Shown piece after piece: positions 6,362-43,818 of a stretch of DNA of 43,818 bases. This stretch comes from Lachnospiraceae bacterium Zagget2 (lineage in GTDB: Bacteria; Bacillota; Clostridia; Lachnospirales; Lachnospiraceae). The position numbers were made by a program, and so were the translations under genes. How positions within the stretch are numbered: the first letter of the stretch is position 1; every line of letters starts with the position of its first letter. The notes under the pieces are model-generated. The model did no database searches. It was given only the letters and a program-made list of their open reading frames with translations, and was not told the origin of the DNA. The stretch lies in the NCBI GenBank assembly GCA_001941045.1, contig MSHD01000034.1, forward strand, positions 1 to 43,818. Direction: 5' to 3'.

Positions 6362-6387
6362 ATCCTGTCACCCTCTCTTAAGACCCC

Positions 6388-7723: not shown

Positions 7724-7739
7724 ACTCTCTTTCCTCCCT

Positions 7740-10292: not shown

Positions 10293-10307
10293 GGAATCCA
10301 CCGCCTT

Positions 10308-11012: not shown

Positions 11013-11027
11013 TCCAGCATCCCCAGC

Positions 11028-12080: not shown

Positions 12081-12094
12081 TCTGTTCTCCTTTC

Positions 12095-14620: not shown

Positions 14621-14630
14621 CCGCCTCTCC

Positions 14631-16178: not shown

Positions 16179-16182
16179 CCGA

Positions 16183-16626: not shown

Positions 16627-18848
16627 CACAAATCCTCCTCTCCGCCATCCGGCGCTTCCGGCTCCTGCTTATCACCAAACGGGAAATCCTCCGGATCGCC
16701 GCCGGACTTATTCCACCAGTAGGCATCCGCATAATTATGGGGGCTATCATCCGCGGTATGGATTTCTTTCTCCCTGATCCAGTCTTCCATCGCCTCGTAA
16801 GCCGCGCTGCCATACTTCTGAAGCTCCCTGCTTGGCCCGATATACTCCCCTTCCTCGTCAAACGCAAGGAACTGCCTTTCATTCACCGGATCATCCACAT
16901 AAGCGGCGTTCCCTTTCGCAATCTCGGCGCACACCTCATCGCGGACTTCTTCATCCGGCACGTAGATGGAGTTTTCCCTCTTGTAAACCTCCTCCTGTTC
17001 CCGGATCGCCTGCGGCGTCTTTCCGATATAACAGACATACTCCGTTCCTTCCGCCCCTTTGGATTGCACAAAGGTCTCCGAGCCGGGGGAACTCTCCGCT
17101 ATGCTGTGCGCCTTCTGGTAGTTGGGCTTCCCCGTCAGGGCATAGGCGTCCACGTTGGTGCGTTGCACTTTTCCGTCGAAATCGGTCTTTTCAAAGCTTG
17201 CGGTTCCATGCCCGGTCGCCGCGTTATAGGAAACGCCCACACAGTTACCCAGTCCCTGTATCTGGGCGTTCCGAAGCAGATTGTCTCCAAACAGGCTCCT
17301 CGCGGACTTCTCCGGATTGTCTCCGTAGGACGTCGCTTTTGGCTCACTTAGATTGTTAAACTGCGGCACCTTCTCTTTCCGGTTGATCATTTTCCCTGTC
17401 GTGTCAATACCGGACAGATACCTCTTTGCCTGATCCTGCGCCGAGTGGGAGGAGGCGACCTCCATCCGCTGCTCCGCATTCCGGATATCTGACGCGGTCG
17501 CAGCACTGGCTGCTACCTTTTTTCTCCCCGTTATGCCGCCTGCCACGGCCCCGATTCCGGCTCCCACCGGACCGGCAACTGCGCCTCCAATCCCGGCTCC
17601 CGCTGCTGCCCGCGCCGCCCTGGGATTCTCTCTTGCGATATCCGCGATTTTCTGGTTTGCCTTCTGGATTCCGCTGTTCACCTTCTCACTGCCGCTCCTC
17701 CAGCCATTGGCAAAACCGTTCCGTGTTACCACCCCCTTTATGCCTCCGATGATTCCTCCCGCGGCACGCGCGGCCCTGCCGGGAACTCCTTTTCCGGTAA
17801 AGCCCTTCGGAAGCCCATGGGAAGACATAAAGCCTTTAAGCCCTCCGACGCCGGAAAAACCGCCCGCTGCCGCACCGCCGGAACCTCCAAAGCCCGCAAT
17901 CCTGCCGGTGATCAGCTGCGTTGCCGAACGATAAGCGCTCATCATCTCGCCTAGATCGCCCGTAATCCTGCCGGATGACAGCGCCATCAGCCCCCAGTTA
18001 TTGAAGATTTGCTCCGCGTTCTGCGCCACCTTCAGAAAAGCGATCTGGAACATGCAGTAGATCAGCAGATTATCCGTGGTCCCCACCAGGGACATCGCCG
18101 TGCCGATCGTGAAACCGTACAGGAACACCTTTACGAACCACACGTTCATGATCAACAGCGCAAACTGAGAAATGATGCACCTTAACCAGCAGAAAAACAC
18201 CGGGCAGGCCGTGTTGGACGCCAGCGCACAGAAGGCCAGCGGACAAAGGTACAGCTCCACAACAAAATTAGCGAAACGCTCAAACAGCTGAAACCAGAGC
18301 TTGATAAAATTCCAGACCAGGATCAGCGCCAGCACAATCAGGATCACAAGGCCGACGACGCTCACGGAAATCCAGGCATTTTCCGCGATATTGAGGACGC
18401 GCGACACATCCAGCGAAAACAGGTTTTCAATCTGTTCCGAAAAAGAATTCTGGTCGATCTCTGCCCCCAAAATCACCTGATAAAATTTATTGCCATACAG
18501 AAGGACATAGTCGATCACGCTGGAGCTATAATAGGTCAAAAACAGCGCCATGAAGAACCGCACCAGTATCATCCCCGCCGACTCGGTCTGGCTGTCCGGC
18601 ATCCACATATAACGCAGGATATTCCAGAGCACAAGCAGGATCGCGATCCCAAAGCCAATGGAGATCAACGCCTCGTGGAACATATAGATTCCTCCGAAAT
18701 GAGACTCCACCTGTGCGGTCGTCGCAAAAGTAAAGGGCGAGAGAATCGCGGAGGTAATAACCGTGAGGACTGCCGAGATAAAGCTTCGGATAATCGACAC
18801 AATCCCTTCCGAGAGAATATTTACGATACCGATGAGTAATTCTTTCAT
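16626..18848 (-). CDS. VirB6/TrbL-like polytopic membrane protein
   Basis: The 740-residue product has an N-terminal third with about seven hydrophobic segments, which fits the TrbL/VirB6 inner channel component. Residues about 325-470 are a Gly/Ala-rich linker with several GxxxG repeats, and the last 250 residues are soluble and hydrophilic with an acidic C-terminus. TrbL-like proteins of Gram-positive elements often have such a tail; its role is unknown. The ATG follows AAGGAG. It sits after the pilin candidate gene and before a small membrane protein. Confidence 0.82.
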   Translation of the reverse strand: MKELLIGIVNILSEGIVSIIRSFISAVLTVITSAILSPFTFATTAQVESHFGGIYMFHEALISIGFGIAILLVLWNILRYMWMPDSQTESAGMILVRFFMALFLTYYSSSVIDYVLLYGNKFYQVILGAEIDQNSFSEQIENLFSLDVSRVLNIAENAWISVSVVGLVILIVLALILVWNFIKLWFQLFERFANFVVELYLCPLAFCALASNTACPVFFCWLRCIISQFALLIMNVWFVKVFLYGFTIGTAMSLVGTTDNLLIYCMFQIAFLKVAQNAEQIFNNWGLMALSSGRITGDLGEMMSAYRSATQLITGRIAGFGGSGGAAAGGFSGVGGLKGFMSSHGLPKGFTGKGVPGRAARAAGGIIGGIKGVVTRNGFANGWRSGSEKVNSGIQKANQKIADIARENPRAARAAAGAGIGGAVAGPVGAGIGAVAGGITGRKKVAASAATASDIRNAEQRMEVASSHSAQDQAKRYLSGIDTTGKMINRKEKVPQFNNLSEPKATSYGDNPEKSARSLFGDNLLRNAQIQGLGNCVGVSYNAATGHGTASFEKTDFDGKVQRTNVDAYALTGKPNYQKAHSIAESSPGSETFVQSKGAEGTEYVCYIGKTPQAIREQEEVYKRENSIYVPDEEVRDEVCAEIAKGNAAYVDDPVNERQFLAFDEEGEYIGPSRELQKYGSAAYEAMEDWIREKEIHTADDSPHNYADAYWWNKSGGDPEDFPFGDKQEPEAPDGGEEDL

Positions 18849-18872
18849 AGAGCTCCTTCCAGCCTGTCTGTT

Positions 18873-19268
18873 TTAAAAGAAACCGGCGATGGTGTTCACC
18901 ACATAATTGTTCGTCACAATGTAAATCATGAACAGCCCGACCACCGCGCGGATAAACCAGCTCTTCGCGCTCTGGCAGGTCCGCTCGTTCGATGAACAGA
19001 TATAAAGGATTGCGGAGATCACGCCTACCACGATCGACACCGTGACCCCCAGCGTCTGGATCTTACTGACCACGGACGTAAGCATCGTGTTCATTTTGTC
19101 AAAAATATCCGTCGCCGACGAAGAGGACGTCGTCGTTGTCGTCGAAGTTCCCGATGTCAGCGCATAGGCGGTGCTGATACTCAAAAGCAACGCCTGCACC
19201 TGTGTGAGCATAATCTTCCATGCCATTCCTGACTTTTCCCTCAAGTTCCCGGTTTTTACTGCTTCCAT
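18873..19268 (-). CDS. VirB2-like pilin candidate
   Basis: The 131-residue product has a long basic N-region, a hydrophobic core and a likely cleavage site after STAYA (near residue 36), then a Thr/Ser-rich segment and two hydrophobic helices (about residues 73-93 and 103-130) separated by a short polar loop. This size and topology fit VirB2/TrbC-type pilins. The ATG at 19268 has AAGGAGG nine bases upstream. A type I signal peptidase gene lies 15 bp upstream in the same operon, which fits a processed pilin. Sequence motifs alone do not prove the family. Confidence 0.65.
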   Translation of the reverse strand: MEAVKTGNLREKSGMAWKIMLTQVQALLLSISTAYALTSGTSTTTTTSSSSATDIFDKMNTMLTSVVSKIQTLGVTVSIVVGVISAILYICSSNERTCQSAKSWFIRAVVGLFMIYIVTNNYVVNTIAGFF

Positions 19269-19282
19269 CTTAAAAATCCTCC

Positions 19283-19774
19283 TTAAATCCATTTCCAACA
19301 GAAACCATCCTGATACCACACAACAAATACCCTCCCGGTCAATTCCGCCCTGCTCACCGTCGGTGTCTCCCATTCCCGCGAATCCCAGGACTCATCCCGA
19401 TTATCACCCATCAGAAAGTAATTCCCATCCGGAACCTTATAGGGTCCATAATCCGAGAGATCCGCCTCGGCATAAGGCTCGGCAAGCACCTCCCCGTCTA
19501 TCAACGTGACGCCTCCGCGAACCTCAACCGTCTCTCCCGGCAGGCCGATAATCCGCTTACAGTACCACGTCCCATCTCTTCGGAATACTACAATACTGCC
19601 CCGGCTTAGAGGCTCCATGAAAATTCCTCTGGATACCATCACCATGCTTCCCGCCGCGATGGTCGGTTCCATGGATGCCGTCGGAATATAGACGCCGGGA
19701 AGCATGCAGAACCTGGTGAGCAAAAATACGAGCGCCAGCTCCGCAATACAAAGCCATGTGACGCGACTACGCAT
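19283..19774 (-). CDS. lepB: Type I signal peptidase (S26) of the element
   Basis: The 163-residue product has one N-terminal membrane helix, the catalytic Ser34 in ASMEPT, the catalytic Lys73 in CKRIIGLPGE, and the GDNRDESWDSR box. It would cleave signal peptides on the outer face of the membrane. It lies just upstream of a candidate pilin gene and is part of the transfer operon, so a dedicated pilin-processing role like that of the S26 enzyme TraF of RP4 is a reasonable inference. The ATG at 19774 is used; an in-frame TTG two codons upstream is less likely. It overlaps the preceding gene by eight bases. Confidence 0.9.
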   Translation of the reverse strand: MRSRVTWLCIAELALVFLLTRFCMLPGVYIPTASMEPTIAAGSMVMVSRGIFMEPLSRGSIVVFRRDGTWYCKRIIGLPGETVEVRGGVTLIDGEVLAEPYAEADLSDYGPYKVPDGNYFLMGDNRDESWDSREWETPTVSRAELTGRVFVVWYQDGFCWKWI

Positions 19775-20420
19775 CCGCAAACAGTTCCTTCGCGTAGATC
19801 CATTCCGCAGCTTTCAGCGGAAGGTACTGATTTTCCTTCAGCCTCGCCTTCAAAAGGACGTCCTGTTTCGGCGTAACGATACCGACAACCGAGCCAAGAT
19901 GCTGCAGGGCGAACATCAGAAAGTCCGTTAAATTCTCCGCGATCAGCTCCTCCGCCTCATTTTTCGCGATAAACGGGGAGTAGGTAATATTTTTTACCAG
20001 AACCGCACAGCCAGGCGTCCTCTTCTGTCCGTAGACCGCCAGCACAAACGCTTTCACCTCCTCGTCCTCCAGCCCTTCAAAGGCTTCCTCATCCAGCGCG
20101 CTCAGCATGTAGCTATGGCAGAAAAGACGAAGCAGCGGAAAGACCGCGTAATCCCCGCCCGGATTGATGCCTGCCTGCAGATCCTCATGCTCCCTGGCAA
20201 GAAGCATATACTGGTTCCAGTCCTCGATGTCGGACTTGGTAAAACCCATATCGCGAAACTCCTTTAACGGGACGCTCGCAGATACCGTCAGTGCCGCAAA
20301 CATGGCGTTCCCGTAGTTCAGCTCCTTTCCCTGTAAATAGGCAAAACTCGTGCTCTCACAGGCGAAGCTTAAGCACCTGGTTTCCCCATTTTTACAGGAA
20401 ACTCTTATGAAATTTTTCAT
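19767..20420 (-). CDS. Hypothetical protein of the conjugative element
   Basis: A 217-residue soluble protein with a good ribosome binding site (AGGAGG six bases before the ATG). No signal or membrane segment is visible. The sequence is rich in acidic helices (LDEEAFEGLEDEEVKAFVLAVYG). I do not recognise the family. Its end overlaps the signal peptidase gene, which places it in the transfer operon. Confidence 0.65.
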   Translation of the reverse strand: MKNFIRVSCKNGETRCLSFACESTSFAYLQGKELNYGNAMFAALTVSASVPLKEFRDMGFTKSDIEDWNQYMLLAREHEDLQAGINPGGDYAVFPLLRLFCHSYMLSALDEEAFEGLEDEEVKAFVLAVYGQKRTPGCAVLVKNITYSPFIAKNEAEELIAENLTDFLMFALQHLGSVVGIVTPKQDVLLKARLKENQYLPLKAAEWIYAKELFADA

Positions 20421-20462
20421 CGCCCACCTCCTGAACGCATTATTGCACAGGCAGGCGGCTTT

Positions 20463-20570
20463 TCAAGCAACGGAAATGAAGGGCGGAATGCCCATGGGAT
20501 TTAGAAAAGAGTACAGCTTCATCAGGTTTCCGGAAAGTATCAGCTCTGTCACGCAAGGCTCATCAGGCAT
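20463..20570 (-). CDS. Possible small ORF of 35 codons
   Basis: In the 152-bp gap between two genes there is a 35-codon frame with an ATG three bases after the previous stop codon, with GGTGGAG 12-14 bases upstream. The composition is plausible for a peptide (ELILSGNLMKLYSFLNP). No homology can be judged. It may equally be non-coding leader of the next gene. Confidence 0.3.
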   Translation of the reverse strand: MPDEPCVTELILSGNLMKLYSFLNPMGIPPFISVA

Positions 20571-20572
20571 CT

Positions 20573-20788
20573 TCAGTTGGAATCTCCACCCGAGGCGTAA
20601 CCTCTCTGCCGCTCCTGCGCGGCATCGGCGGTGTATTTCCTGCCTTCCGGCACCCGCCTTAACTCTGTGCGAAGCTGTGCCTCGTCAATATACAGGATTC
20701 TGGCTATGTAAGGAACCGGCGTCTGCAATTTCATCATCACTTCAATCATCTGCCGCTCCGCGTAACCGATCTGGTCCCTGTTTTTCAT
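20573..20788 (-). CDS. Small hypothetical protein with helix-turn-helix look
   Basis: A 71-residue protein. The core QMIEVMMKLQTPVPYIARILYIDEAQLRTELR resembles a helix-turn-helix of a small DNA-binding protein, and the tail is basic and Gly/Ser-rich. Its ATG overlaps the stop of the upstream gene. A regulatory role is only suggested. Confidence 0.55.
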   Translation of the reverse strand: MKNRDQIGYAERQMIEVMMKLQTPVPYIARILYIDEAQLRTELRRVPEGRKYTADAAQERQRGYASGGDSN

Positions 20789-21039
20789 CGTCCGTCATCC
20801 TCCCACAAATGTGCCGCAGTCTCCCTGTCTGGTTTTTCGTCATCAGCATCCTGCTCATCCCCGTCGGGGATATCCGGATCGCCTTCACCTTCCGCGTTTT
20901 CATCATCCTTCTCATGTTTCCTATTCAGCTTTCCTTCCCGCCGCAGCTGCTCCATGCGGGCATCCGCATTCTTTCCGGTGATCAGGAGGCTATAAAGGCC
21001 TGCCACAAGAAACAATAGAATCATCACTTTTATCAACAT
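20785..21039 (-). CDS. Small single-pass membrane protein
   Basis: An 84-residue protein with a hydrophobic segment at residues 3-20 followed by a strongly charged tail rich in Asp, Glu and Lys. No lipobox. GGATGGAGAG lies before the ATG. It is the first gene after the repA 3' region and is translationally coupled to the next. Function unknown. Confidence 0.6.
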   Translation of the reverse strand: MLIKVMILLFLVAGLYSLLITGKNADARMEQLRREGKLNRKHEKDDENAEGEGDPDIPDGDEQDADDEKPDRETAAHLWEDDGR

Positions 21040-21129
21040 TTCTCTCCATCCTCTCTACTTTTTGCGCAAAAAAGCAGCCAAAGATTGTTTTCTCTGCCTG
21101 CGTCTACTCTTTACCTTATTCAGTTCTGT

Positions 21130-21287
21130 AACTTTATGTCACGGTGTCACAAAGTTCGCCTCATCCCACCGCAGCACGCTGCTACCCGGCTCCTTCAACT
21201 TTATGACACGGTGTCACAAAGTTTTCTGTTTCTGCATCTGCAACGCCAGACATGCCTTCCAGCTTTGTGTCACGGTATCGCAAAGTT
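21130..21287. repeat. Three 27-bp palindromes at the 3' end of repA
   Basis: Near-identical 27-bp imperfect palindromes lie at 21130-21156, 21197-21223 and 21261-21287. Each has AACTTT-like and AAAGTT arms around a TGTCACGGTGTCAC-like centre. The starts are 67 and 64 bp apart, about six helical turns, so they should face the same side of the helix. The first is outside repA, the others inside its last 106 bases but read in different frames, so the conservation acts on DNA. A centromere for ParB or a second set of initiator sites is likely. Confidence 0.8.
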
Positions 21288-22330
21288 CGCCTCTGTGCAT
21301 CTGAGCCACGAGCCGCCCCATACATGTCATAGTTGACCCGTGCCTGATAATAGTTACCGATCGTCAGCACCGCATTGTAAAGCACCGTTAGAAGATACGC
21401 CTTGATATTGCCCACTCTTCCCGTGTTCTCCGCCAGGCAGGTGAGCACATAGCGGATGTGTTCACAGGTAAGCTTCAGGAAATGGTCCTTTACAACCGCT
21501 GCCGGCTTTTCTGTCTGCGCAATCCGCACAGGGGCATCATCCGGCATCATCAGTACGTCCACGATCAGTTCCACCAGCTCATCCACCGCCTCCTTTTCAC
21601 ATCCCGGATCTCCCAGAAGACACTCGTAGTCTATATTCTTGCGTACCAATGCCCGATACTGGTTCATCCTCTCCATCATATCCTGAACTTCGCCGGCCAT
21701 GCTGCTACAGGTATCCGACAGATTTGATAGGATAAGGGAATCTGTCTCGTTTAATTCAGTCTCATTTATATCAGTCTTATTACCGTTTGATTTTGGAACT
21801 TCCGGAAGTTCGGAATTCATACTTCCTGAATTTCGTTTTTCGCACTTCCTGAAGTATGATTTTCGAACTTCAGAAGATTCACTTTTCATACTTCCTGAAG
21901 TGTGATTTTCATACTTCTTTGAATTTTCGGCGTTTTCCGGCGCTTTCTCCTCTTCTGAGGTCTGCTTTACCATAAAGTTTTTGACGTAGATCACATTCGG
22001 GTGACCCAGCCCCACCCTGCGTTTTTCGATGAGACCGATCCCCTTTTGCACATCCAGTTCGGCAAGAGTCCGAACCGCTTTCTGCCTCCCGCAGTTCAAA
22101 AGCTCCATCACGTCCTCGACCGTGAAAATAATATAAACCCGATCCTCCTCGTCAAACCAGCGGTTCTTCACGCTCAGGCTCATACGGTCCAGCATCAGAC
22201 CGTATAAGACCTTCGCTTCGCAGGAAATCCCCTTAAAATAGTCTGAAGTAAATAATAGCTTCGGAATCCGGTAAAAGCTGTACTGCTCCGCCTCCATTCC
22301 CCGGAAATAGTCAAATTGAATCTCCTGCAT
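21182..22330 (-). CDS. repA: RepA_N family replication initiator
   Basis: The 382-residue product has the RepA_N domain (PF06970) at about residues 15-110: YSFYRIPKLLFTSDYFKGIS, AKVLYGLMLDRMSLSVKNRW, VYIIFTVEDVMELLNCGRQKA. These proteins start replication of Firmicute plasmids and are also common on ICEs. As in plasmid members, the centre of the gene carries iterons (residues about 134-179) that encode a poorly conserved Ser/Lys/Glu-rich linker. The C-terminal domain is helical and would bind host factors. The gene follows parB by a few bases. The ATG is preceded by GGGGTGG. Confidence 0.92.
   Translation of the reverse strand: MQEIQFDYFRGMEAEQYSFYRIPKLLFTSDYFKGISCEAKVLYGLMLDRMSLSVKNRWFDEEDRVYIIFTVEDVMELLNCGRQKAVRTLAELDVQKGIGLIEKRRVGLGHPNVIYVKNFMVKQTSEEEKAPENAENSKKYENHTSGSMKSESSEVRKSYFRKCEKRNSGSMNSELPEVPKSNGNKTDINETELNETDSLILSNLSDTCSSMAGEVQDMMERMNQYRALVRKNIDYECLLGDPGCEKEAVDELVELIVDVLMMPDDAPVRIAQTEKPAAVVKDHFLKLTCEHIRYVLTCLAENTGRVGNIKAYLLTVLYNAVLTIGNYYQARVNYDMYGAARGSDAQRRTLRYRDTKLEGMSGVADAETENFVTPCHKVEGAG
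21793..21930. repeat. Six 23-bp iterons inside repA (candidate oriV)
   Basis: Six units with the core ACTTCCTGAAGT or close variants start at 21798, 21821, 21844, 21867, 21890 and 21913, exactly 23 bp apart. Because 23 is not a multiple of three, each copy is read in a different frame, so selection acts on DNA. In RepA_N plasmids the initiator binds iterons inside its own gene, so this is the probable vegetative origin. Confidence 0.88.
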
Positions 22331-22336
22331 CTTTTG

Positions 22337-23215
22337 TCACCACCCCTGTTCTCTTTTCCATTGCTCCAGCAAGTCATAGATTATGTTTTCTATTTGTTCC
22401 TTCGTATAGGCCGACGGAAAGAACTGCGAAATCTTTTTTGCTGTAAGCGTCACACTGCCGGACGCGCTCTTCTTTTTTTCAAGAATCCCGGCAATCTGTT
22501 CCGCTGACAGCGCATCTGTCTGGCTGAGATTCTTTAACTCCTCAGCCTGATCTTTTGAGGGTAGGACGCTTCCACGCTGGATTGCTTCCACAACCGTCCG
22601 CTGTTCTTCCTGTCCAAGATAAGACAGGCGTTCGCCTGCAAGCATCGTGACCCGCCCCTGATCTACATAATCCAGAAGCTCCGGCACCAGTTCCGTAAGA
22701 CGTATGTACCGATGAACAGTTCTGCCGCTGTCCCCTGCTGCCTCCCCTACCATGTCCGCCGTGTTCTTTTCGCCACGGCTGCCCTGGTGCTTCAGCGCCT
22801 CATACTTCATCCGGTATGCCCTGGCTTTTTCACTTGGAAGGATATCCTCCCTCTGGATATTCGCGTCCACCATGATCACCGTGGCAGCGTCATCGTCGAG
22901 ATCACGGACAATGGCCGGCATTTCTTCCAGGCCAGCCAGCTCGCACGCCCTCCATCTTCGATGCCCGGAAATCACTTCGTATCCGCCGTCCGGATGCTTC
23001 CGCACAATTCCCGGAACCAGCACCCCGTATTTCTTCACACTCTCGACCGTCTCCAGCATCTTCTCGTCATCAAGCACGCGAAACGGATGATTTTTAAACG
23101 GGCGCAGCTCGCTAAGCGGAATGGATATCATTGCTTCCCCGGTCGGTATTTCCGGTTTTCCAAAAAGATCATCATAGGAAGTCAGCTTTACCTTCTGCGC
23201 ACTGCTACTCCTCAT
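22337..23215 (-). CDS. parB: ParB/Spo0J-family partition protein
   Basis: The 292-residue product has the ParB N-terminal domain with LRPFKNHPFR, the GHRRWRA CTP-binding box and NIQREDILPSEKARAY, then a helix-turn-helix region (TVHRYIRLTEL). It would load at centromere sites and stimulate ParA for stable inheritance of the element when it is circular and replicating. It overlaps the end of parA by 11 bases and precedes repA by a few bases, a par-rep unit. Confidence 0.93.
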   Translation of the reverse strand: MRSSSAQKVKLTSYDDLFGKPEIPTGEAMISIPLSELRPFKNHPFRVLDDEKMLETVESVKKYGVLVPGIVRKHPDGGYEVISGHRRWRACELAGLEEMPAIVRDLDDDAATVIMVDANIQREDILPSEKARAYRMKYEALKHQGSRGEKNTADMVGEAAGDSGRTVHRYIRLTELVPELLDYVDQGRVTMLAGERLSYLGQEEQRTVVEAIQRGSVLPSKDQAEELKNLSQTDALSAEQIAGILEKKKSASGSVTLTAKKISQFFPSAYTKEQIENIIYDLLEQWKREQGW

Positions 23216-23990
23216 AGTCCAGCACCTCCCTTGTCAGGCAGCGATATCCCTCCGCCACGATTCCGTTCGGATCATGCAGATAGATGCTTTTCCCTTCCGC
23301 CGTTGTCTCCGCCGCGCGTACTGACAGAGGAATGCAATTCTTAAAAATATGTATGTGATCCCCATAAGCCTCTCTTAACTGATCTGAGATATCCCTGGCG
23401 AAATTGGTTCTCCTGTCCACCTTCGTGAGCAGGATTCCCATAATGAAAAGTTCCGGATTCAGTTTCCGATGTACTTTCCCGATCGTTTTGATCAGCTGCT
23501 GCAGACCCTTGACCGGCAAATAGGCCGCCTCAACCGGAATCAGCACACAGTCCGCCGCCACAAGCGCATTGATCGTAATCATACCCAGCGAGGGCATACA
23601 GTCGATCAAAATGTAATCGTACTGATCACGGACGCTTCGGACATACTGTCTTAAGATCGTCTCCCTGCTCATCACATTCACAAGGGAGGTCTCCAGCCCG
23701 GCCAGTTCAATATTGGCCGGAATGAAATCGACGCCCTCCTCATGGTGAAGGATACCTTCCCGCGGCCCGATATCCTCGTCATTGATGATTTTATCCATGA
23801 TATTTACCAGCGTCACCTCCAGCTCATCCGGCTCCGGAATGCCGAGGCTCGCCGCCATACTTCCCTGTGCATCCGCTTCGATCAACAGCACCCGCTTCCC
23901 GGCTCCCGCCAGGCCGATGCCCAGATTGACACAGGATGTCGTCTTGCCGACTCCGCCTTTCTGATTTGCGACGGAAATTACTCTACACAT
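23205..23990 (-). CDS. parA: ParA/Soj partition ATPase
   Basis: The 261-residue product is a deviant Walker A ATPase with KGGVGKTT at residues 11-18, the DADAQ-equivalent IEADAQG and the switch region DCMPSLGMI. It forms a nucleoid-bound gradient that positions ParB-DNA complexes. The ATG at 23990 gives the standard MCRVISVANQKGG start; the open frame continues 16 codons upstream but without support. It is the first gene of the long element operon and has its own promoter. Confidence 0.94.
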   Translation of the reverse strand: MCRVISVANQKGGVGKTTSCVNLGIGLAGAGKRVLLIEADAQGSMAASLGIPEPDELEVTLVNIMDKIINDEDIGPREGILHHEEGVDFIPANIELAGLETSLVNVMSRETILRQYVRSVRDQYDYILIDCMPSLGMITINALVAADCVLIPVEAAYLPVKGLQQLIKTIGKVHRKLNPELFIMGILLTKVDRRTNFARDISDQLREAYGDHIHIFKNCIPLSVRAAETTAEGKSIYLHDPNGIVAEGYRCLTREVLDYEE

Positions 23991-24032
23991 AATCCCACCT
24001 TCCTCTTCAAACAATTTTTGACCATAACAAAA

Positions 24033-24067
24033 GGACACTGTCCAAATTACTTATCTGGAAAGTGTCC
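24033..24067. promoter_or_regulatory. Paired 11-bp operators in the parA leader
   Basis: GGACACTGTCC (24033-24043, a palindrome around a central C) and GGAAAGTGTCC (24057-24067) lie 24 bp apart, just downstream of the predicted parA start point. The outer parts also pair as AGGACACT and AGTGTCCT. Autoregulation by the partition proteins or control by an element repressor is plausible. Confidence 0.6.
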
Positions 24068-32446: not shown

Positions 32447-32872
32447 TTACCCGATCGCAAAGGTCATCTCCGCCTTTGCGGCCAGCTGACCGTCGACAGT
32501 CGCCTTTGCGCTGCCCACGCCGATCGGACCTTTCTGTTTGATGATCTCCATCTCGAGCGTCAGCACATCGCCCGGCACAACCTTTCTCTTGAACTTCGCC
32601 TTGTCAATACCGCCGAAATAGACGACCTTGCCCTTATTCTCCGGCTGAGAGAGCAGTGCGACCGCCCCGGTCTGCGCCAGCGCTTCAAGGATCAGCACGC
32701 CCGGCATCACCGGCTCCTGCGGGAAATGCCCGTTGAAGAAGGGCTCATTATAAGAGACGCACTTCTTTCCGACCGCGCGCTTTCCTTCTTCAAGCTCCTC
32801 GATCCGGTCGATCAGCAGAAACGGCTGACGATGCGGAATGATTTCCATGATCTGTTTGATATCCATTACCAT
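32447..32872 (-). CDS. fabZ: 3-hydroxyacyl-ACP dehydratase FabZ
   Basis: The 141-residue hotdog protein dehydrates 3-hydroxyacyl-ACP to trans-2-enoyl-ACP. The catalytic His49 is in [11 protein letters not shown] and the catalytic Glu63 in LILEALAQ. The start at 32872 has GGGGGT at the right distance; the second ATG is too far. It follows fabF by six bases and is the last gene of the fab run. Confidence 0.96.
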
Positions 32873-32878
32873 ATTGCT

Positions 32879-34114
32879 TTACCCCCTGTACTTTTTGATC
32901 AGGATGCTCGCATTGTGGCCGCCGAAACCGAGAGAATTCGACAGCGCATAGTCGATATCCATCGTGATGCCATGCCCCTGCACATAGTCAAGGTCGCACT
33001 CCTCGTCCGGATTCTCAAGGCCTCTGGTCACATGGATGTAGGACTCCTGCATCTCCTTCACGCAGGTGATGAACTCCACCGCGCCGGCCGCGCCGAGCAG
33101 ATGGCCGATCATCGACTTGGTAGAATTGACCTTCATCTCCTTCGCATGCTCGCCGAACAAAGTCTTGATCGCGCGGGTCTCGCACAGATCGTTTAAATGT
33201 GTGCTCGTGCCATGCGCGTTGATATACATAATATCGTCGAGCGCCGCGCCGGATTCCTCCACCGCACGCTTCATCGCTACGACCGCACCCATGCCGTCCT
33301 CCGCCGGGGAAGTGATGTGGTAAGCGTCGCTCGACGCGCCGTAGCCGACAACCTCGGCGTAAATCTTTGCGCCGCGCGCCTTCGCATGTTCAAGCTCCTC
33401 GAGAACGACGACGCCCGCGCCCTCTCCCATGACAAAACCGTCGCGATCCTTGTCAAAAGGAATCGAGCAGCGATTCGGGTCTTCAATCGTGGAAAGCGCA
33501 GTCAGCGCCGAGAAACCCGCTACGCCCAGACGGCAGATTGCACTCTCGGTTCCGCCGGACACCATCACGTCCGCGTCGCCGACCTGGATACTGCGGTATC
33601 CCTCGCCGATGGAGTGTGTACCGGTCGCGCAGGCCGTCACCACATTCAGGCTCTTGCCCTTCAGGCCGTAGGCGATCGAGACATTGCCCGCCGCCATGTT
33701 GGAGATCAGAAGAGGCACCATCAGCGGGCTCATACGGCCCGGCCCCTTTGTGACCATCTTCTCATACTCAATCGCGGTGCGCTCCAGACTCCCGACACCG
33801 GAACCGATCGAGCAGCCCACCATGTAGGGATCTTCCTTCGTCATGTCAAGCCCGGAATCCTCGATGGCCTCTTTTGCCGCCGCGACTGCGAACTGCGCGA
33901 ACTTGTCCATTCTCCTGGCCGCCTTCGGATCCATGTACTCCTTCGCCACGAAGCCCTTTACCTCCGCCGCGGTATGTACCTTAAACTCCGTGGAGTCAAA
34001 GCTGGAGATAATCCCGAAACCGTGATTGCCGGCCTTTACATTCTCAAAATAATCATGCACATTCAGTCCCATGGGTGTAATCGCACCCATGCCTGTCACC
34101 ACTACTCTCCTCAT
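32879..34114 (-). CDS. fabF: 3-oxoacyl-ACP synthase II FabF
   Basis: The 411-residue condensing enzyme elongates acyl-ACP with malonyl-ACP. The catalytic triad is visible: Cys in TACATGTHS, His in AHGTSTHLND and His in GHLLGAAGA. Length is typical. Its ATG overlaps the fabG stop, so the two are translationally coupled. Confidence 0.97.
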   Translation of the reverse strand: MRRVVVTGMGAITPMGLNVHDYFENVKAGNHGFGIISSFDSTEFKVHTAAEVKGFVAKEYMDPKAARRMDKFAQFAVAAAKEAIEDSGLDMTKEDPYMVGCSIGSGVGSLERTAIEYEKMVTKGPGRMSPLMVPLLISNMAAGNVSIAYGLKGKSLNVVTACATGTHSIGEGYRSIQVGDADVMVSGGTESAICRLGVAGFSALTALSTIEDPNRCSIPFDKDRDGFVMGEGAGVVVLEELEHAKARGAKIYAEVVGYGASSDAYHITSPAEDGMGAVVAMKRAVEESGAALDDIMYINAHGTSTHLNDLCETRAIKTLFGEHAKEMKVNSTKSMIGHLLGAAGAVEFITCVKEMQESYIHVTRGLENPDEECDLDYVQGHGITMDIDYALSNSLGFGGHNASILIKKYRG

Positions 34115-34854
34115 CAGATCGCTATCCCTCCGTCTACACTGATTACCTGTCCTGTGATATAAGCGCCCTTATCCGACGCCAGATAAGCCGCCATATCCGC
34201 GATGTCCTCCGGCTTTCCAAAATGTCCAAGCGGAATCATGGAAACCGCGGCCTCTTTTGCACTCTCAGGCATCGCCTGCGTCATATCCGTGTCCACAAAA
34301 CCCGGAGCGATCGCATTGACCGTGATCCCACGGCTCGCAAGCTCTCTTGCCACCGTCTTTGTGAGGCCAATGATGCCCGCCTTGGACGCGGCATAGTTCG
34401 CCTGTCCCGCATTTCCCATAATGCCGGACACCGAAGAAATATTGATAATCCTGCCCGCGCGCTGCTTCAGCATCGGACGGCTGACCGCCTTGATCATATT
34501 GAAGCAGCCCTTCAGGTTCGCATCGATGACCGCGTCAAAGTCCGCCTCCGACATCTTCATGATCAGATTGTCGCGTGTGATACCCGCATTGTTTACGAGA
34601 ATATCGAGACGACCGTATTCCTTGATAACCGCCTTGACCATGGCATCCGCATCCGCTGTAACGGCCACGTTGCACTGATACACGCATCCGTCGGCGCCGA
34701 GCGCTTTGATCTCGCCAAGCGTCTGCTCCGCCTTCTCCTTCGAGCCGTTGTAATTCACCACGACCGTGGCGCCTTCCGCCGCCAGCGCAAGCGCGATCGC
34801 GCGCCCGATTCCCTTCGCCGCCCCGGTTACCAGGGCCACCTTTCCTTTCAGCAT
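34114..34854 (-). CDS. fabG: 3-oxoacyl-ACP reductase FabG
   Basis: The 246-residue SDR enzyme reduces 3-oxoacyl-ACP with NADPH. The cofactor motif TGAAKGIG is near the N-terminus, NNAG follows, and the catalytic Ser (ISSVSG) and YAASK complete the set. It lies between fabD and fabF. Confidence 0.96.
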
Positions 34855-34858
34855 CCGC

Positions 34859-35785
34859 TTACTCTCCTTTCAACAGGGCTGTGACTTTCTCAAAGTCCGC
34901 CATCGTCTCTATATTATACATCGTCACACTGCGATTAATTTTCCTCATAAAACCGGACAGCGTCTTGCCCGGCCCCATCTCAACAAAGGTATCCACACCG
35001 TCGACGATCATGCGCTCCACCGACTGCTGCCAGCGCACGCTGGACGAAACCTGTCTGCGAAGATAGTCCTTCACATCGTCTCCGGATTTCACATAATCCG
35101 CCGTCACATTGGTAAGATACGGCGTCGCGATCCCGGAAATCTCCACATCCTGTAGCTCCCCGGCCAGCTTCTCACCCGCCTCCTCGAGCATCTTCGAGTG
35201 GAAGGGACCGCTGACGTTCAGACGAATCACCCGCTTCGCCCCGGCATTTTTCAGCGCCTCACCGGCGGCCTCCACGGCCTGCTCCTCCCCGGTAATCACA
35301 ATCTGTCCCGGGCAGTTATAGTTTGCGATGGAAACAATACCCTCCGTCTGCTCACAGATCTCCTCGATCTTCGCTGCATCCATGGCCAGCACCGCCGCCA
35401 TGGCTCCGCCCACCGGCACGGCCTCCTGCATGTAAATGCCGCGCTTTCTCACCACGCGGAAAATATCCGGAAGGCTCATCACCCTCGACGCCGCCAGCGC
35501 CGCATACTCGCCGAGGCTCAGGCCTGCATTGACAGAAGAAGTAATTCCCTGCTCCTCTACAGCCTTCAGAATGGCAATCTCCACGGTCAGCATGCAAATC
35601 TGCGTGTACTCGGTCTGGTTCAGCTTCTCGTTCTCTTCAAAGCAAAGCGCCGGAATGTCCAGTCCTGACGCCGCTGAAGCCGCATCGAACACCTCGCGGC
35701 ACACAGGAAACGCCTCATAGAAATCCTTTCCCATGCCCACATACTGCGCGCCCTGTCCGGGAAATACAAATGCAAGCCCGCTCAT
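34859..35785 (-). CDS. fabD: Malonyl-CoA:ACP transacylase FabD
   Basis: The 308-residue product loads malonyl groups onto ACP. The N-terminal [14 protein letters not shown], the nucleophile Ser in GLSLGEY and the catalytic His in GPFHSKML are present. A FabT-like operator lies 22 bp upstream of its start, and a terminator-like hairpin separates it from acpP, so it may begin its own transcript with fabG, fabF and fabZ. Confidence 0.96.
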
Positions 35786-35806
35786 ATCTACACCTCACTG
35801 AAAAAG

Positions 35807-35819
35807 TTTGATAATCAAA
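35807..35819. promoter_or_regulatory. FabT-like operator upstream of fabD
   Basis: TTTGATAATCAAA fits the FabT (MarR family) palindrome TTTGA-N3-TCAAA. It lies 22 bp before the fabD start. No strong -35/-10 pair is evident nearby. Confidence 0.75.
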
Positions 35820-35838
35820 ATAACAAAATTGAAATACA

Positions 35839-35869
35839 GGCTGCCGCGATATATCAGCCGCAGGCAGCC
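35839..35869 (-). terminator. Hairpin between acpP and fabD
   Basis: GGCTGCC-GCG pairs with CGC-GGCAGCC with one bulged base. On the minus strand it is followed by a T-rich stretch with TATTTC and TTTTG. It probably reduces read-through from acpP into fabD, which would make acpP largely monocistronic. Confidence 0.65.
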
Positions 35870-35905
35870 CTCTCTTTGTCCGCGTATGGATTCCGGCAGC
35901 GCCGC

Positions 35906-36136
35906 TTACTCCACACCCTTGGATTTCAGATAATCCATCACAGCGCCTACCGTCGTGATATTCTCCAGCTCCTCGGACGGAATCTCGATCTCATACTCCT
36001 CCTCGAGCGCCATCACGAGCTCAAACAGATCGAGGGAATCCGCGCCAAGATCCTCTTTAAAAGTCGTCTCTGCGGTGATCTCACTCGCATCCACATTCAG
36101 CTGCTCCGCAACCATCTCTCTGATTTTGTCTAACAT
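35906..36136 (-). CDS. acpP: Acyl carrier protein
   Basis: The 76-residue acidic four-helix protein carries acyl chains on a phosphopantetheine attached to Ser34 in the ADSLDLFEL motif. It has its own near-consensus promoter and a FabT-like operator, which fits the high ACP level that cells need. fabH lies upstream and fabD downstream. Confidence 0.97.
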   Translation of the reverse strand: MLDKIREMVAEQLNVDASEITAETTFKEDLGADSLDLFELVMALEEEYEIEIPSEELENITTVGAVMDYLKSKGVE

Positions 36137-36223: not shown

Positions 36224-37189
36224 TCACCATTCCAGCACGCACGCGCCCCAGGTCAGTCCCGCGCCAAAGCCGGACAGCACAATCCGGTCGCCCGGATGCA
36301 GTCTTCCGCGCTCGTCAAGCTGCGCCAGCAGAATCGGAAGCGAAGCCGCCGATGTATTTCCGCACTCATCCATATTCATCGGGAATTCCTCCTCGGCCAT
36401 GCCGAGTCTTTTCGCCACCGCCTGAATAATCCGCTTATTTGCCTGGTGCAGAATAAACAGATCAATCTCCTCCGGCTTCAGCCCCGCTTTCGCAAGCGCG
36501 TCCTCGATACACTGCGGAACCGTGCGCACCGCAAATTTGAATACTTCCTGGCCATCCATCTTCAGATAGCCGCATTTCTGTCCCTTCGCACGAAGCGGAT
36601 TCTCATTCGGTCTTCCCTCGCAGAAAAGCACATCCCACTTCTCACCGTTGCTGCCAAGCGACTGCGAAAGCAGGCCGCCGTTCTCAGAGGCCGTCACAAG
36701 CGCTGCCCCCGCGCCGTCTCCAAAGAGAACGCAGGTAGTGCGGTCCGTCCAGTCCACAATCTTCGAGAGCGTCTCCGCCCCGATCAGCAGTGCATTCCGA
36801 TAAGTACCGCTCTCAATAAAAGCCTCCGCGACATGCAGCGAGTAGAGAAAACCGGAGCAGGCCGCATTGATGTCAAATGCAAGCGCATGCTTCGCGCCGA
36901 TCTCCTTCTGCACCTGACAGGCTGTGCTCGGCGTATCCATATCGCCTGTGATTGTCGCCACGATCAGCAGCTCCACATCCTCCGCCCGGAAATTCGCCCT
37001 TTCAAGCGCCATCCGCGCCGCCTCCGCCGACATGGAGAGCGTCGTCTCCTCCTTCGCCAGATGCCGCGCCCGGATGCCCGTCCGCTCCGATATCCATTCA
37101 TCGCTCGTGTCCACCAGCGTCGCCAGATAATCATTATCCGCCCGGAAAGCCGGCAGACTGTACCCGGTACCAATTATTTTTGCTCTCAT
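36224..37189 (-). CDS. fabH: 3-oxoacyl-ACP synthase III FabH
   Basis: The 321-residue enzyme starts fatty acid synthesis by condensing acyl-CoA with malonyl-ACP. The catalytic Cys is in NAACSGFLY, His in LHQANKR and Asn in GNTSAASLP. It is the first gene of the fab set and has a perfect consensus promoter plus a FabT-like operator in its leader. Confidence 0.97.
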   Translation of the reverse strand: MRAKIIGTGYSLPAFRADNDYLATLVDTSDEWISERTGIRARHLAKEETTLSMSAEAARMALERANFRAEDVELLIVATITGDMDTPSTACQVQKEIGAKHALAFDINAACSGFLYSLHVAEAFIESGTYRNALLIGAETLSKIVDWTDRTTCVLFGDGAGAALVTASENGGLLSQSLGSNGEKWDVLFCEGRPNENPLRAKGQKCGYLKMDGQEVFKFAVRTVPQCIEDALAKAGLKPEEIDLFILHQANKRIIQAVAKRLGMAEEEFPMNMDECGNTSAASLPILLAQLDERGRLHPGDRIVLSGFGAGLTWGACVLEW

Positions 37190-37206: not shown

Positions 37207-37219
37207 TTTGATATTCAAA
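37207..37219. promoter_or_regulatory. FabT-like operator upstream of fabH
   Basis: TTTGATATTCAAA (TTTGA-N3-TCAAA) lies 18 bp before the fabH start and about 14-26 bases after the predicted transcription start, where a bound repressor would block polymerase. Confidence 0.8.
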
Positions 37220-40789: not shown

Positions 40790-40817
40790 TTAGTTTGCGC
40801 TAATTAGTTATTGCTAA
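40790..40817. promoter_or_regulatory. Tandem TTAG-N6-CTAA operator
   Basis: Two abutting 14-bp units, TTAG-TTTGCG-CTAA (40790-40803) and TTAG-TTATTG-CTAA (40804-40817), cover about -3 to +25 of the predicted promoter. The spacing of arms equals that in the first part of the DtxR/IdeR consensus. A metal-sensing regulator is inferred. Confidence 0.65.
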
Positions 40818-40907: not shown

Positions 40908-40936
40908 TTGCCAATGATTTTCAAATATGTTACTAT
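40908..40936 (+). promoter_or_regulatory. Promoter of the acyl-CoA dehydrogenase/Etf locus
   Basis: TTGCCA (40908-40913) and TACTAT (40931-40936) are 17 bp apart, 81 bp upstream of the start codon, in the 244-bp divergent gap that also holds the DUF3793 promoter. Confidence 0.5.
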
Positions 40937-41017
40937 TTCTACTGGATTAGAAGCGGGCGATCTGGTTTTGTGTCTTATCCCCACTTCTTTTACTTTATAG
41001 AAAAGGAGTTTTTCATC

Positions 41018-43069
41018 ATGCTCTTCGATAACGAGACACAGGAACTGCTCACTATGGTTCGAGAGTTCGTAGACAAAGAGGTCATCCCCACTGTGGGAGA
41101 TTATGAGCGTAACAATGAGTTTCCGGAAAAGCTGCTGGACATGGCCTGCGATATGGGGCTGAACCAGCTCTGTGTTCCTGCCGAGTACGGCGGACCCGGC
41201 CTTACGAATGTGCAGGTCTTCGCCATCGCGGAGGAGATCGCCCGCGGCGACATCGGCATCGGCACCACGCTGATCGCGAATGCCCTGGCTTCTTTCCCGG
41301 TTCTGATCGCAGGTACCGACGCGCAAAAGAAGCTGTGGTTTGACACCATGATAAAGAAAAAATATGCCGCCTTCTGCCTGACGGAACCGAACGCGGGCTC
41401 GGATGCCGGCAGCGTCAGCACGACCGCTGTGGAGGACGGCGACGATTATATCATCAACGGTACCAAGTCCTTTATTTCAAACGGTCCGATCGCGGGCATC
41501 TACACCGTCCTGGCTTCCACCAAGAAATCCGCAGGAGCGATGGGCCTGTCCGCCTTCATCGTGGAGCGGGATCGCCCCGGCGTCTCGATCGGCCGTGAGG
41601 AAGACAAGATGGGCATGCGCCTGAGTTGCACCAGCGAGGTCATCTTCGACAATGTGCGTATTCCGAAGGATCATCTGCTCGGCCGCAAGAACCGTGGTTT
41701 CAAATACATCCTGGAGACCCTCGATCACTCCCGTCCGGGCGTGGGCGCCTTCGGCATCGGCATCGGGCAGCGCGTGGTCGAGGAAGCCACCAAGTACGCC
41801 AAACAGCGCAAGCAGTTCGGTCAGCCCGTCGCCAATTTCCAGATGGTCGAGGAAATGCTGGCCAATATGGAGATTCAGGTCCAGGCGGGCCGTCAGATGT
41901 ATCTGCATGTTGCGGAGCTCATGGACGCGGGTCTTCCCTTTACACTGGAAGCTTCCATTGCCAAGACCTTCGGCACCGACACCGGTATGAAGTGCGCGGT
42001 GGACGGCGTTCAGGTCATGGGCGGTTACGGTTATATGAAGGATTACCCGATGGAGAAGCTCATGCGGGATGCGAAGATTCTTCAGATCTATGAGGGCACG
42101 AACCAGGTGCAGCGCACAGTGATTGCCGGCGGTGTCAAGAAGAAATATCCCCGGAGCACACCGAAGTCCGCTCCCACCACGGCCCCGACAAAGCGCGAGG
42201 AAGCGCCGCGGATGACGATTCCTTCCCAGACGGCTGTCGAGGAGACGAAGGGCGATCAGAAAGCGCTGAACCTGCTGGTCTGCATCAAGCAGGTGCCCGA
42301 CACGACCCAGATCAAGATTGATCCGGTGAAGCACACGCTCATCCGGGAAGGCGTTCCGGCGATCGTCAGCACCTTCGACACCTACGCGCTGGAGACTGCC
42401 CTGCGGCTCAGGGATCAGGCAGGCGGCAAGGTCACCGTGATCACCATGGGAATCCCGAAGGCGAAGGACGCCCTGCGCGAGTGCCTGGCGGCCGGAGCGG
42501 ACGAAGCCTGGCTCATCACGGACCGTGCTTTCGGCGGCTCCGATACGCTGGCCACCTCAAAGATCATCTCCACTGCCATCAGCTATCTCGAAGAGAAGTC
42601 CGGCAGACCCTTTGACGTCATCTTCTGCGGCAAGCAGGCGATCGACGGCGATACCGGTCAGGTCGGTCCGGAGATCTCGCAGCACCTGAACCGTGCGCTC
42701 GTCTCCTACGCCGTAGAGGTCAGCCTGCAGGACGACGGAACGCTGAAGTGCAAGCGCGAGAGCGACGAGGGTTATGACTATTATTCCGCACCCGGCGGCT
42801 GCATCATCACCGTCAACAAGACCTCCTACGACCTGCGCTATCCGAACTTCAGGACCAAGCGCTTTGCACGGACTGCTGAGATCGGAGAACTGACGAGCGC
42901 TGAGGTGGTCGTCGATCCGCAGGAACGCGGTCTGGCAGGCTCTCCTACGAAGGTTCTCAAGACCTACACGCCTCACCACGAAAAGAATGGCATGAAGATC
43001 GAGAATCTGGATGGAAAAGCAGCGGCAGAGAAACTGACAAGGCTGTTGTCCGACGCCGGACTACTCTAA
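41018..43069 (+). CDS. Acyl-CoA dehydrogenase-EtfB fusion protein
   Basis: One 683-residue frame joins two usually separate proteins. Residues 1 to about 378 are a full-length acyl-CoA dehydrogenase: FAD/substrate loop CLTEPNAGSDAG, YAKQRKQFGQPV, VQVMGGYGYMKDYP and the catalytic-base motif IYEGTNQVQR with Glu359. Residues about 379-415 are a Pro/Thr/Ala/Lys-rich linker. Residues about 416-683 are an EtfB with VCIKQVPDTTQIKIDP and GKQAIDGDTGQVGPEI, sequences usual in Etf of bifurcating Bcd-type complexes. The ATG at 41018 has AAAAGGAG upstream; the longer frame is rejected. etfA follows after 19 bp. Enoyl-CoA reduction coupled to ferredoxin reduction is inferred, not shown. Confidence 0.93.
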   Translation: MLFDNETQELLTMVREFVDKEVIPTVGDYERNNEFPEKLLDMACDMGLNQLCVPAEYGGPGLTNVQVFAIAEEIARGDIGIGTTLIANALASFPVLIAGTDAQKKLWFDTMIKKKYAAFCLTEPNAGSDAGSVSTTAVEDGDDYIINGTKSFISNGPIAGIYTVLASTKKSAGAMGLSAFIVERDRPGVSIGREEDKMGMRLSCTSEVIFDNVRIPKDHLLGRKNRGFKYILETLDHSRPGVGAFGIGIGQRVVEEATKYAKQRKQFGQPVANFQMVEEMLANMEIQVQAGRQMYLHVAELMDAGLPFTLEASIAKTFGTDTGMKCAVDGVQVMGGYGYMKDYPMEKLMRDAKILQIYEGTNQVQRTVIAGGVKKKYPRSTPKSAPTTAPTKREEAPRMTIPSQTAVEETKGDQKALNLLVCIKQVPDTTQIKIDPVKHTLIREGVPAIVSTFDTYALETALRLRDQAGGKVTVITMGIPKAKDALRECLAAGADEAWLITDRAFGGSDTLATSKIISTAISYLEEKSGRPFDVIFCGKQAIDGDTGQVGPEISQHLNRALVSYAVEVSLQDDGTLKCKRESDEGYDYYSAPGGCIITVNKTSYDLRYPNFRTKRFARTAEIGELTSAEVVVDPQERGLAGSPTKVLKTYTPHHEKNGMKIENLDGKAAAEKLTRLLSDAGLL

Positions 43070-43088
43070 GATTAGGAGGTAACATACC

Positions 43089-43818
43089 ATGGAAAATAAA
43101 GATCTTTGGGTTTATATAGAGACTGAAAACGGTATCGCAAAGAACGTTGGCTATGAGCTGTTGAGTCCGGGCCGCGCCATGGCGGATAAGCTGGGATCCA
43201 GGCTGGTCGCCGTGGTTCTGGGCAAGAATGCAGAGTCTGTCGCACAGAAGGCCATCTCCTACGGCGCGGACCAGGTACTGCTGGTGGAGGGCGATGAATA
43301 CGACACCTACAACACCGACGCACAGTCCTATGCCATGGAGACGCTGATCCGGAAACATGCTCCGTTTATCGTCCTCTACGGAGCGACGAACAACGGCCGC
43401 GACGTGGCTCCCCGGGTAGCCTGCTCGCTGCACACCGGCCTCACCGCGGACTGCACCGGTCTGGATATTGATGAAAACGGACTTCTGGCCTCCACACGTC
43501 CCGCTTTCGGCGGAAACCTGATGGCCACGATCTCCTGCCCGGACCATCGTCCGCAGATGTCTACGGTTCGCCCCGGCGTGTTCAAAAAGGCGCCGGCAGA
43601 CGACAGCCGCAGCGGCGAGATCATCCGCGAGGACATTCACATCGATCCGGATAAGATCCGCGTTCACCTGCTGGAGCGGGTGAAGGAGGTGGCTGAAGCG
43701 GTTCATCTCGAAGAGGCTGATATCATTGTTTCCGGCGGACGCGGCCTTGGCTGCGCGGAAAATTTCTCCTATATCCGTGATCTGGCAGACGCTATGGGTG
43801 GTGTAGTCGGAGCCTCCC
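43089..43818 (+). CDS. etfA: Electron transfer flavoprotein alpha subunit, 5' part
   Basis: The first 243 residues of EtfA are present before the right edge: an N-terminal domain (IETENGIAKNVGYELLSPGRAMADKL, VLYGATNNGRDVAPRVA, ADCTGLDI, RPAFGGN) and the start of the FAD domain (ADIIVSGGRGLG). The missing part should hold most FAD contacts. AGGAGGT lies before the ATG. It is the partner of the EtfB moiety fused to the dehydrogenase just upstream, so a dehydrogenase-EtfB/EtfA complex is expected. Confidence 0.95.
   Translation, partial: MENKDLWVYIETENGIAKNVGYELLSPGRAMADKLGSRLVAVVLGKNAESVAQKAISYGADQVLLVEGDEYDTYNTDAQSYAMETLIRKHAPFIVLYGATNNGRDVAPRVACSLHTGLTADCTGLDIDENGLLASTRPAFGGNLMATISCPDHRPQMSTVRPGVFKKAPADDSRSGEIIREDIHIDPDKIRVHLLERVKEVAEAVHLEEADIIVSGGRGLGCAENFSYIRDLADAMGGVVGAS

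Follow-up and report, generated by a model that had tools for sequence, protein, structure and literature searches.

A fused acyl-CoA dehydrogenase-EtfB protein of gut Clostridia, probably the enoyl reductase of type II fatty-acid synthesis

The best-described relatives of the system reported here are the electron-transferring flavoprotein (ETF) complexes Bcd-EtfAB, represented by the structures 5OL2 (which we take to be from C. difficile) and 4L1F/4KPU (presumably from A. fermentans), and CarCDE (6FAH). They consist of the same three parts, an acyl-CoA dehydrogenase (ACAD), EtfB and EtfA, as three separate subunits. In a stretch of 43,818 nucleotides from Lachnospiraceae bacterium Zagget2 (contig MSHD01000034.1; the whole stretch is called the window below), by contrast, one gene encodes the ACAD and EtfB in a single chain, next to a gene for EtfA. 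The ACAD part matches solved chains with E-values of 3e-95 (4l1f), 1e-93 (5ol2) and 4e-85 (6fah), the EtfB part with 9e-67 (4kpu), and the EtfA of a related locus (L010) with 3e-105 (6fah). The catalytic Glu of the IYEGT motif (Glu359 in the window, Glu in 29/29 fusions), the equivalent of Gly123 of EtfB and an adjacent EtfA with ETF and ETF_alpha domains (complete in locus L005) are shared as well. Besides the single chain, the setting differs: fermentation for the known complexes and, as we read it, fatty-acid synthesis for the fusion, with no butyrate genes recognised by eye in the flanks read. No description of an ACAD-EtfB fusion, or of an ACAD/ETF enoyl-acyl carrier protein (ACP) reductase, was found in the open-licence literature searched (subscription papers on ETF phylogeny were outside its scope); relative to the literature searched, the architecture is a previously undescribed variant of Bcd-EtfAB.

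An ACAD covalently linked to part of an ETF is also present in BCR/BOOR of Fusobacterium nucleatum: there, a rubredoxin and the C-terminal portion of EtfA are attached to Bcd, and the partner is a flavodiiron protein (PMC12288474). The present fusion differs in having a whole EtfB (PF01012), and neither ETF_alpha nor rubredoxin among its Pfam domains. Two BCR-like proteins were seen in the family of Clostridiales bacterium NK3B98, one combining an ACAD, the FAD domain of EtfA and a rubredoxin in one chain according to Pfam (L276:5788-7701), the other recognised from similarity to ACAD and EtfA only (L271:6797-8767).

The fusion itself is confirmed. Pfam places Acyl-CoA_dh_N at residues 5-113, Acyl-CoA_dh_M at 118-213, Acyl-CoA_dh_1 at 225-371 and ETF at 440-628, all far above cut-off, so that the initial annotation was right to describe a complete ACAD joined to a complete EtfB in one uninterrupted frame. 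It was equally right that EtfA is separate. The etfA start codon lies 19 nt past the fusion stop, behind its own AGGAGG; the gene is interrupted by 145 N (contig positions 43819-43963) just outside the window, and its full-length copy in L005, where the fusion is 98.5% identical to that of the window, encodes 330 aa with ETF and ETF_alpha domains. From the single chain it follows that a fixed ACAD:EtfB stoichiometry and a tethering of the two parts are to be predicted.

Of 79 loci returned when named genomes were scanned, 33 (L005-L037) have at least 70% identity in their best segment. Unbroken fusions make up 26 of these 33 (in L029 the fusion reaches the end of its contig); five more are truncated at contig ends, one (L037) is split and one (L032) has a broken frame. 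The break in L032 (L032:223-2300) lies inside the ACAD part and leaves the EtfB joint intact; it is either a sequencing error or a pseudogene. Together with the window and two further genomes, these loci provide 29 intact fusion open reading frames. Among 27 aligned proteins, the linker measures 37-44 residues and is composed of 25% Ala, 18% Pro and 16% Lys. In the window it has 39 residues, not the about 37 first estimated, although the Pro/Ala/Lys-rich composition was correctly noted. It is the least conserved part of the protein (mean identity to the window 37%, against 88% for the ACAD and 82% for EtfB), and comparison with four near-identical copies gives, in sum, 29 synonymous and 13 non-synonymous codon differences. 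An artefact of sequencing or assembly might be suspected, as most of the data are metagenome-assembled genomes (MAGs) and the reading frame of L032 is broken, at another point of the gene. However, 29 intact fusions from separate loci, NK3B98 among them, with a linker that varies in length while staying in frame and shows such codon differences, exclude an error joining two genes and make an artefact extremely improbable. The linker is thus coding, and probably a flexible tether. It looks disordered in an AlphaFold2 model of the fusion (19 close relatives; mean pLDDT 59.9, pTM 0.59, residues 336-414 below 50), the rest of which is too weak to interpret. G427, a candidate for a second fusion with a long linker, turned out to have three separate genes. 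In L030 (L030:1856-3913) the EtfB part, but not the ACAD part, sits on a long branch (0.53).

We propose that, in these gut Clostridia, the fused ACAD-EtfB and its free EtfA probably serve type II fatty-acid synthesis as its enoyl reductase, in place of FabK. The reduction of enoyl-ACP is indispensable and serves as a drug target. To our knowledge, all known enoyl-ACP reductase classes (FabI, FabK, FabL, FabV and the eukaryotic MECR) draw their electrons directly from NAD(P)H. FabK, for which the same role is established as the one predicted here, is an FMN-dependent TIM barrel working with NAD(P)H (PMC8626469), in contrast to the ACAD FAD and ETF FADs of the fusion system; its NMO fold (PF03060/TIGR03151) is not among the matches listed for the fusion protein (Pfam, and 25 of 27 from NCBIfam). 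FabX of Helicobacter pylori is closer in being a non-FabI flavin redox enzyme acting on acyl-ACP, but it belongs to the NMO family, carries FMN and [4Fe-4S] and works in the oxidative direction (PMC8626469).

The proposal is supported by what was found, and not found, in the 34 genomes carrying the fusion or its split form (fusion/split genomes): FabF is above cut-off in 33, and FabK, FabI and FabV were found in none. FabF was missed in G423, where the contig that carries the fusion (L036) breaks off within fabG. The best FabK score (TIGR03151) is 130 bits for a cut-off of 453, while FabK is above cut-off in 221 of the 392 genomes of the window's order, with more strong scores below it. The best match to E. 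coli FabI reaches 60.6 bits, taken as not found; for comparison, the top 60 PDB chains, every one of them named as an enoyl reductase, scored 105.8-571.3 bits. FabV (PF12242) gave no match above cut-off and one just under it, and 14 control genomes yielded no positive either. The 23 SDRs inspected (part of those found, 16 being from fusion/split genomes) carry YxxxK instead of the Yx6K found in E. coli FabI.

The gene order argues for the same role. The fusion gene and etfA stand directly ahead of acpP-fabD-fabG in six genomes (L012, L013, L031, L032, L036 and L083), and the run continues to fabF and fabZ where the contig extends; the contigs of L031, L036 and L083 begin inside the fusion gene, and L083 is the tail of a fusion from the same MAG as L025. 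In the window, the fab operon (fabH-acpP-fabD-fabG-fabF-fabZ) lies 3.8 kb from the fusion on the opposite strand and has no fabK. Two FabK-bearing relatives of the order (L136, L137) show the run fabH-acpP-fabK-fabD-fabG, with fabK inside acpP-fabD spacers of 969 and 994 nt. The operon lacking fabK and the arrangement in the relatives had both been overlooked by the initial annotation. Inspection by eye revealed no operator common to the fusion gene and the fab operon.

Of 19 fusion/split loci examined, all but L225 have a recognisable ACP, and in these (18/18) the acpP-fabD spacer is 7-365 nt long. The longest belongs to Candidatus Onthomonas avicola (fab locus L224, fusion L033) and holds a dead, frameshifted and truncated fabK: compared with five FabKs, residues 1-19 match at 63-74%, residues 20-89 match in another frame at 40-44%, and nothing follows (E-values of 1e-15 to 8e-15, seven spacers being searched). 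The spacers of the other 17 loci, measured to the longest fabD frame, are 7-273 nt and too short for fabK. This remnant and the short spacers suggest that the fusion took the place of fabK. In the six other spacers searched for remnants, the sole candidate, in G405, scored 22.3 bits and was matched by 5/300 codon-block shuffles.

A sample of 300 members of the NK3B98 family also supports the replacement. Nine have the fusion or the split pair (six full-length, one as two contig-end halves, two split), and 142, by hand count, have a FabK-type match at E 1e-60 or better (129 at 1e-100 or better). The two do not overlap in any of the nine (p 0.003, ignoring kinship). Finally, the fusion is the only ACAD found in seven of the 34 fusion/split genomes, and no crotonase was found in the window's genome, which likewise speaks for a role in fatty-acid synthesis.

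Several observations weigh against this proposal. The FabI/FabL motif was checked in no more than 16 SDRs from fusion/split genomes, and MDR- and OYE-type reductases lay outside the search. Six of the 34 genomes do have a FabX/FabK-like match, with best pieces of 59-130 bits. No fab gene is present in the fetched flank (up to 6 kb a side) of 24 of the 33 loci L005-L037. Short acpP-fabD spacers also exist in FabK-negative relatives lacking the fusion (31 nt in L190, 166 nt in L196), and a single MAG provides a solid fabK remnant, the G405 candidate being too weak to use. The ACAD part is slightly more acidic than its relatives, so a basic ACP-docking face is not suggested; net charge, tried as a docking hint, gave none, and no ACP-specific residue was identified. 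Among the 25 other FabK-negative members of the window's family, 12 lack a credible FabF, one (G336, 451 bits) is under the cut-off and 12 have FabF above it. In seven of these last 12, the fetched fab region includes a FabX/FabK-like NMO gene, and in the other five it does not; in two of the five (G314, G331), nothing matched the fusion either. The window's family therefore has further enoyl reductases that escaped these searches, so that the absence of known ones lends support to the proposal but, taken alone, does not decide it.

The FabX/FabK-like NMO protein lies in the fab operon, or ends it, in L190-L195 and L200 (G283, G318, G347, G348, G354, G271 and G142; FabI was searched in G142 only), and those of L190 and L200 have a Cys-rich tail. 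Possible roles are those of a further non-classical enoyl reductase or of an unsaturated-fatty-acid enzyme. Of the six fusion/split genomes with a FabX/FabK-like match, two were fetched for it (L218, L219); there the protein is 54% identical to that of L190 and is encoded away from fab genes, with an ACP-like gene 3 kb off in L218. The twelve family members with neither FabK nor credible FabF (G041, G180, G234, G242, G300, G334, G364, G367, G378, G384, G387 and G388) are 98-100% complete; type II fatty-acid synthesis is apparently absent from them.

The enzyme is probably electron-bifurcating. Its EtfB motif AIDGDTGQVGP contains the Gly that corresponds to Gly123 in the A. fermentans protein, kept in 29/29 fusions, a feature that also fits the proposed role. 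PMC12630350 reports this Gly as invariant in bifurcating EtfB and replaced by a bulkier residue in canonical ETFs. The same text gives potentials of -10 mV for crotonyl/butyryl-CoA, -320 mV for NADH and -500 mV for ferredoxin (PMC12630350), with which bifurcation would be downhill. Among solved structures, the five nearest to EtfB (E 4e-50 or better) belong to bifurcating or confurcating systems; the other five, at 3e-15 or worse, are presumably canonical ETFs. With such relatives and the conserved Gly, two NADH per enoyl group are expected. A trans-2-enoyl-ACP, or its CoA equivalent, would enter the ACAD site, and the beta-FAD of EtfB would be reduced by NADH. One electron per NADH would then travel through the alpha-FAD in the mobile domain of EtfA to the ACAD FAD and saturate the chain, and the other would pass to ferredoxin or flavodoxin. 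Over two NADH, one electron pair would thus be spent on the enoyl group and one on ferredoxin. During the swing of the Etf shuttle domain, the linker may hold EtfB next to its dehydrogenase. Both the preference for ACP or CoA and bifurcation itself are predictions.

The initial annotation implied a fermentation setting like that of Bcd or CarCDE; the architecture it described has stood, and the sequence bears the mark of a bifurcating ETF, but the setting has shifted to a probable role in fatty-acid synthesis. A butyryl-CoA dehydrogenase/Etf complex of butyrate fermentation that merely became fused would agree with the best solved relatives, which are Bcd-type ACADs and bifurcating EtfB chains (4l1f, 5ol2, 4kpu), and with the split forms, arranged as adjacent acd-etfB-etfA. 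The window's genome (98.4% complete), however, has one ACAD, one EtfA match, one EtfB match and no crotonase. In the other 27 fusion/split genomes, which have more than one ACAD, an extra copy was inspected in 11; in 11/11 it belongs to a separate acd-etfB-etfA cluster, is 36-40% identical to the ACAD of the fusion and is distant from it in the tree. In L207 that cluster is located behind a 3-hydroxyacyl-CoA dehydrogenase (Pfam). Four loci were read by eye for butyrate genes beside the fusion (the window's contig, L005, L019 and L033), and none was recognised. The initial annotation had advised a look for crotonase, thiolase or CoA-transferase genes just past the right edge; the part read has none and continues, after etfA and the gap, with an AstE/AspA-like hydrolase and an oligopeptide-type ABC transporter cluster (the latter named by eye). 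The butyrate role was rejected on the ACAD and crotonase counts and the separate clusters, and we regard it as unlikely. Reduction of another enoyl-CoA (acryloyl-, cinnamoyl- or isocaprenoyl-CoA) in amino-acid or lactate fermentation seems very doubtful: the best NCBIfam match of the ACAD part is the acryloyl-CoA reductase AcrC, but at 386.7 bits it is far below the cut-off of 640, no dehydratase or CoA-transferase neighbours were recognised by eye in the flanks read (no genome search was made), and the fab gene run and the missing fabK would be left unexplained.

The linkage to fab genes would also suit an acyl-ACP dehydrogenase for unsaturated fatty acids, oxidative like H. pylori FabX, with an unseen enzyme as enoyl reductase. 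Oxidation is natural for ACADs, relatives without a recognised enoyl reductase exist, and FabX provides a precedent for an acyl-ACP dehydrogenation route (PMC8626469). Against this, FabK, FabI and FabV were found in none of the 34 genomes, a bifurcating-type Etf would favour the reducing direction, and the gene that decayed is fabK, a reductase. We consider such an oxidative enzyme improbable and retain the enoyl reductase.

All fusions form one group in the ACAD tree (105 rows) and in the EtfB tree (76 rows), with supports of 99/88 and 89/79, respectively, and the split pairs of G424 (L037) and G504 (L266) are sister to it. Most simply, adjacent acd and etfB genes would have fused once. Nested deep within the group, the window's copy is 80% identical to the NK3B98 fusion, although FabF identity to the window is 48-52% in 11 loci of NK3B98-type genomes (54-74% in 12 fab-bearing members of the window's own family). 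This suggests that the fusion moved between bacterial families, the window's genome and NK3B98 being presumed to belong to different ones. The MAG carriers are labelled Lachnospiraceae, Oscillospiraceae, Ruminococcaceae, Clostridiales, Eubacteriales, Clostridia and Candidatus Onthomonas avicola; a further carrier is NK3B98 (taxid 877414, fusion at L019).

The features of the window are collected in Table 1. The loose promoter pattern was matched upstream in 27/27 loci checked, as a consensus match with no shuffle control. Two perfect tandem TTAGN6CTAA palindromes (window 40790-40817), also kept in L005, L006, L007 and L011, lie between the fusion and a divergent DUF3793 and flavodoxin pair, of which they are possibly the operator. 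Another palindrome, TTTGAATATCAAA (37207-37219), is located between a promoter-like site and fabH and looks like a FabT/MarR-type box. Conjugative-element genes occupy the minus strand from about 6300 to 24000. Outside the window, an unfused ACAD with 51% identity lies beside a FabA/FabZ-like dehydratase, a FabG-like SDR and a 2-oxoacid-dehydrogenase-type cluster in L269 (L269:4266-15989) and L270, with EtfB and EtfA close to it in L269.

Table 1. Positions of the fusion gene, the fab operon and other features in the window.
Feature	Position	Strand	Basis or remark
ACAD-EtfB fusion gene	41018-43069	+	ATG to stop, 683 aa, no internal stop
ACAD part, residues 1-377, catalytic Glu359	41018..42148	+	Pfam; Glu in 29/29 fusions
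Linker, residues 378-416 (39 aa)	42149..42265	+	Ala/Pro/Lys-rich, in frame, length-variable in relatives
EtfB part, residues 417-683, plus stop	42266..43069	+	Pfam ETF domain, structure matches
etfA, 5' part, 243 codons	43089..43818	+	remainder behind 145-N scaffold gap
Promoter-like TTGCCA-17-TACTAT	40908..40936	+	consensus match
Ribosome-binding site AAAGGAG ahead of fusion ATG	41002..41008	+	sequence
fabH, first gene of fab operon	36224..37189	-	NCBIfam TIGR00747 above cut-off
acpP (acyl carrier protein)	35906..36136	-	NF002148 and PF00550 above cut-off
acpP-fabD spacer, 120 nt	35786..35905	-	fabK site in the two FabK-bearing relatives
fabD	34859..35785	-	TIGR00128 above cut-off
fabG	34114..34854	-	TIGR01830 above cut-off
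fabF	32879..34114	-	TIGR03150 above cut-off
fabZ	32447..32872	-	TIGR01750 above cut-off
TraG-type ATPase	7740-10301	-	
T4SS coupling protein	12095-14620	-	
ParB	22337-23215	-	
ParA	23205-24038	-	

Taken at its widest, the finding would be a new class of enoyl-ACP reductase, a bifurcating ACAD-ETF in lipid synthesis that has displaced FabK, has moved between bacterial families and conserves energy; this we put forward tentatively, at a little under an even chance. As NK3B98, which we take to be an isolate, carries the fusion, its function can be tested in a strain. If the fusion is indeed the enoyl reductase, a fermentation machine would have been recruited into lipid synthesis, and 'butyryl-CoA dehydrogenase' would be a wrong name for this gene in gut Clostridia. 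If it also bifurcates electrons, each round of elongation would oxidise two NADH and return reduced ferredoxin, which would make fatty-acid synthesis energy-conserving in these anaerobes.

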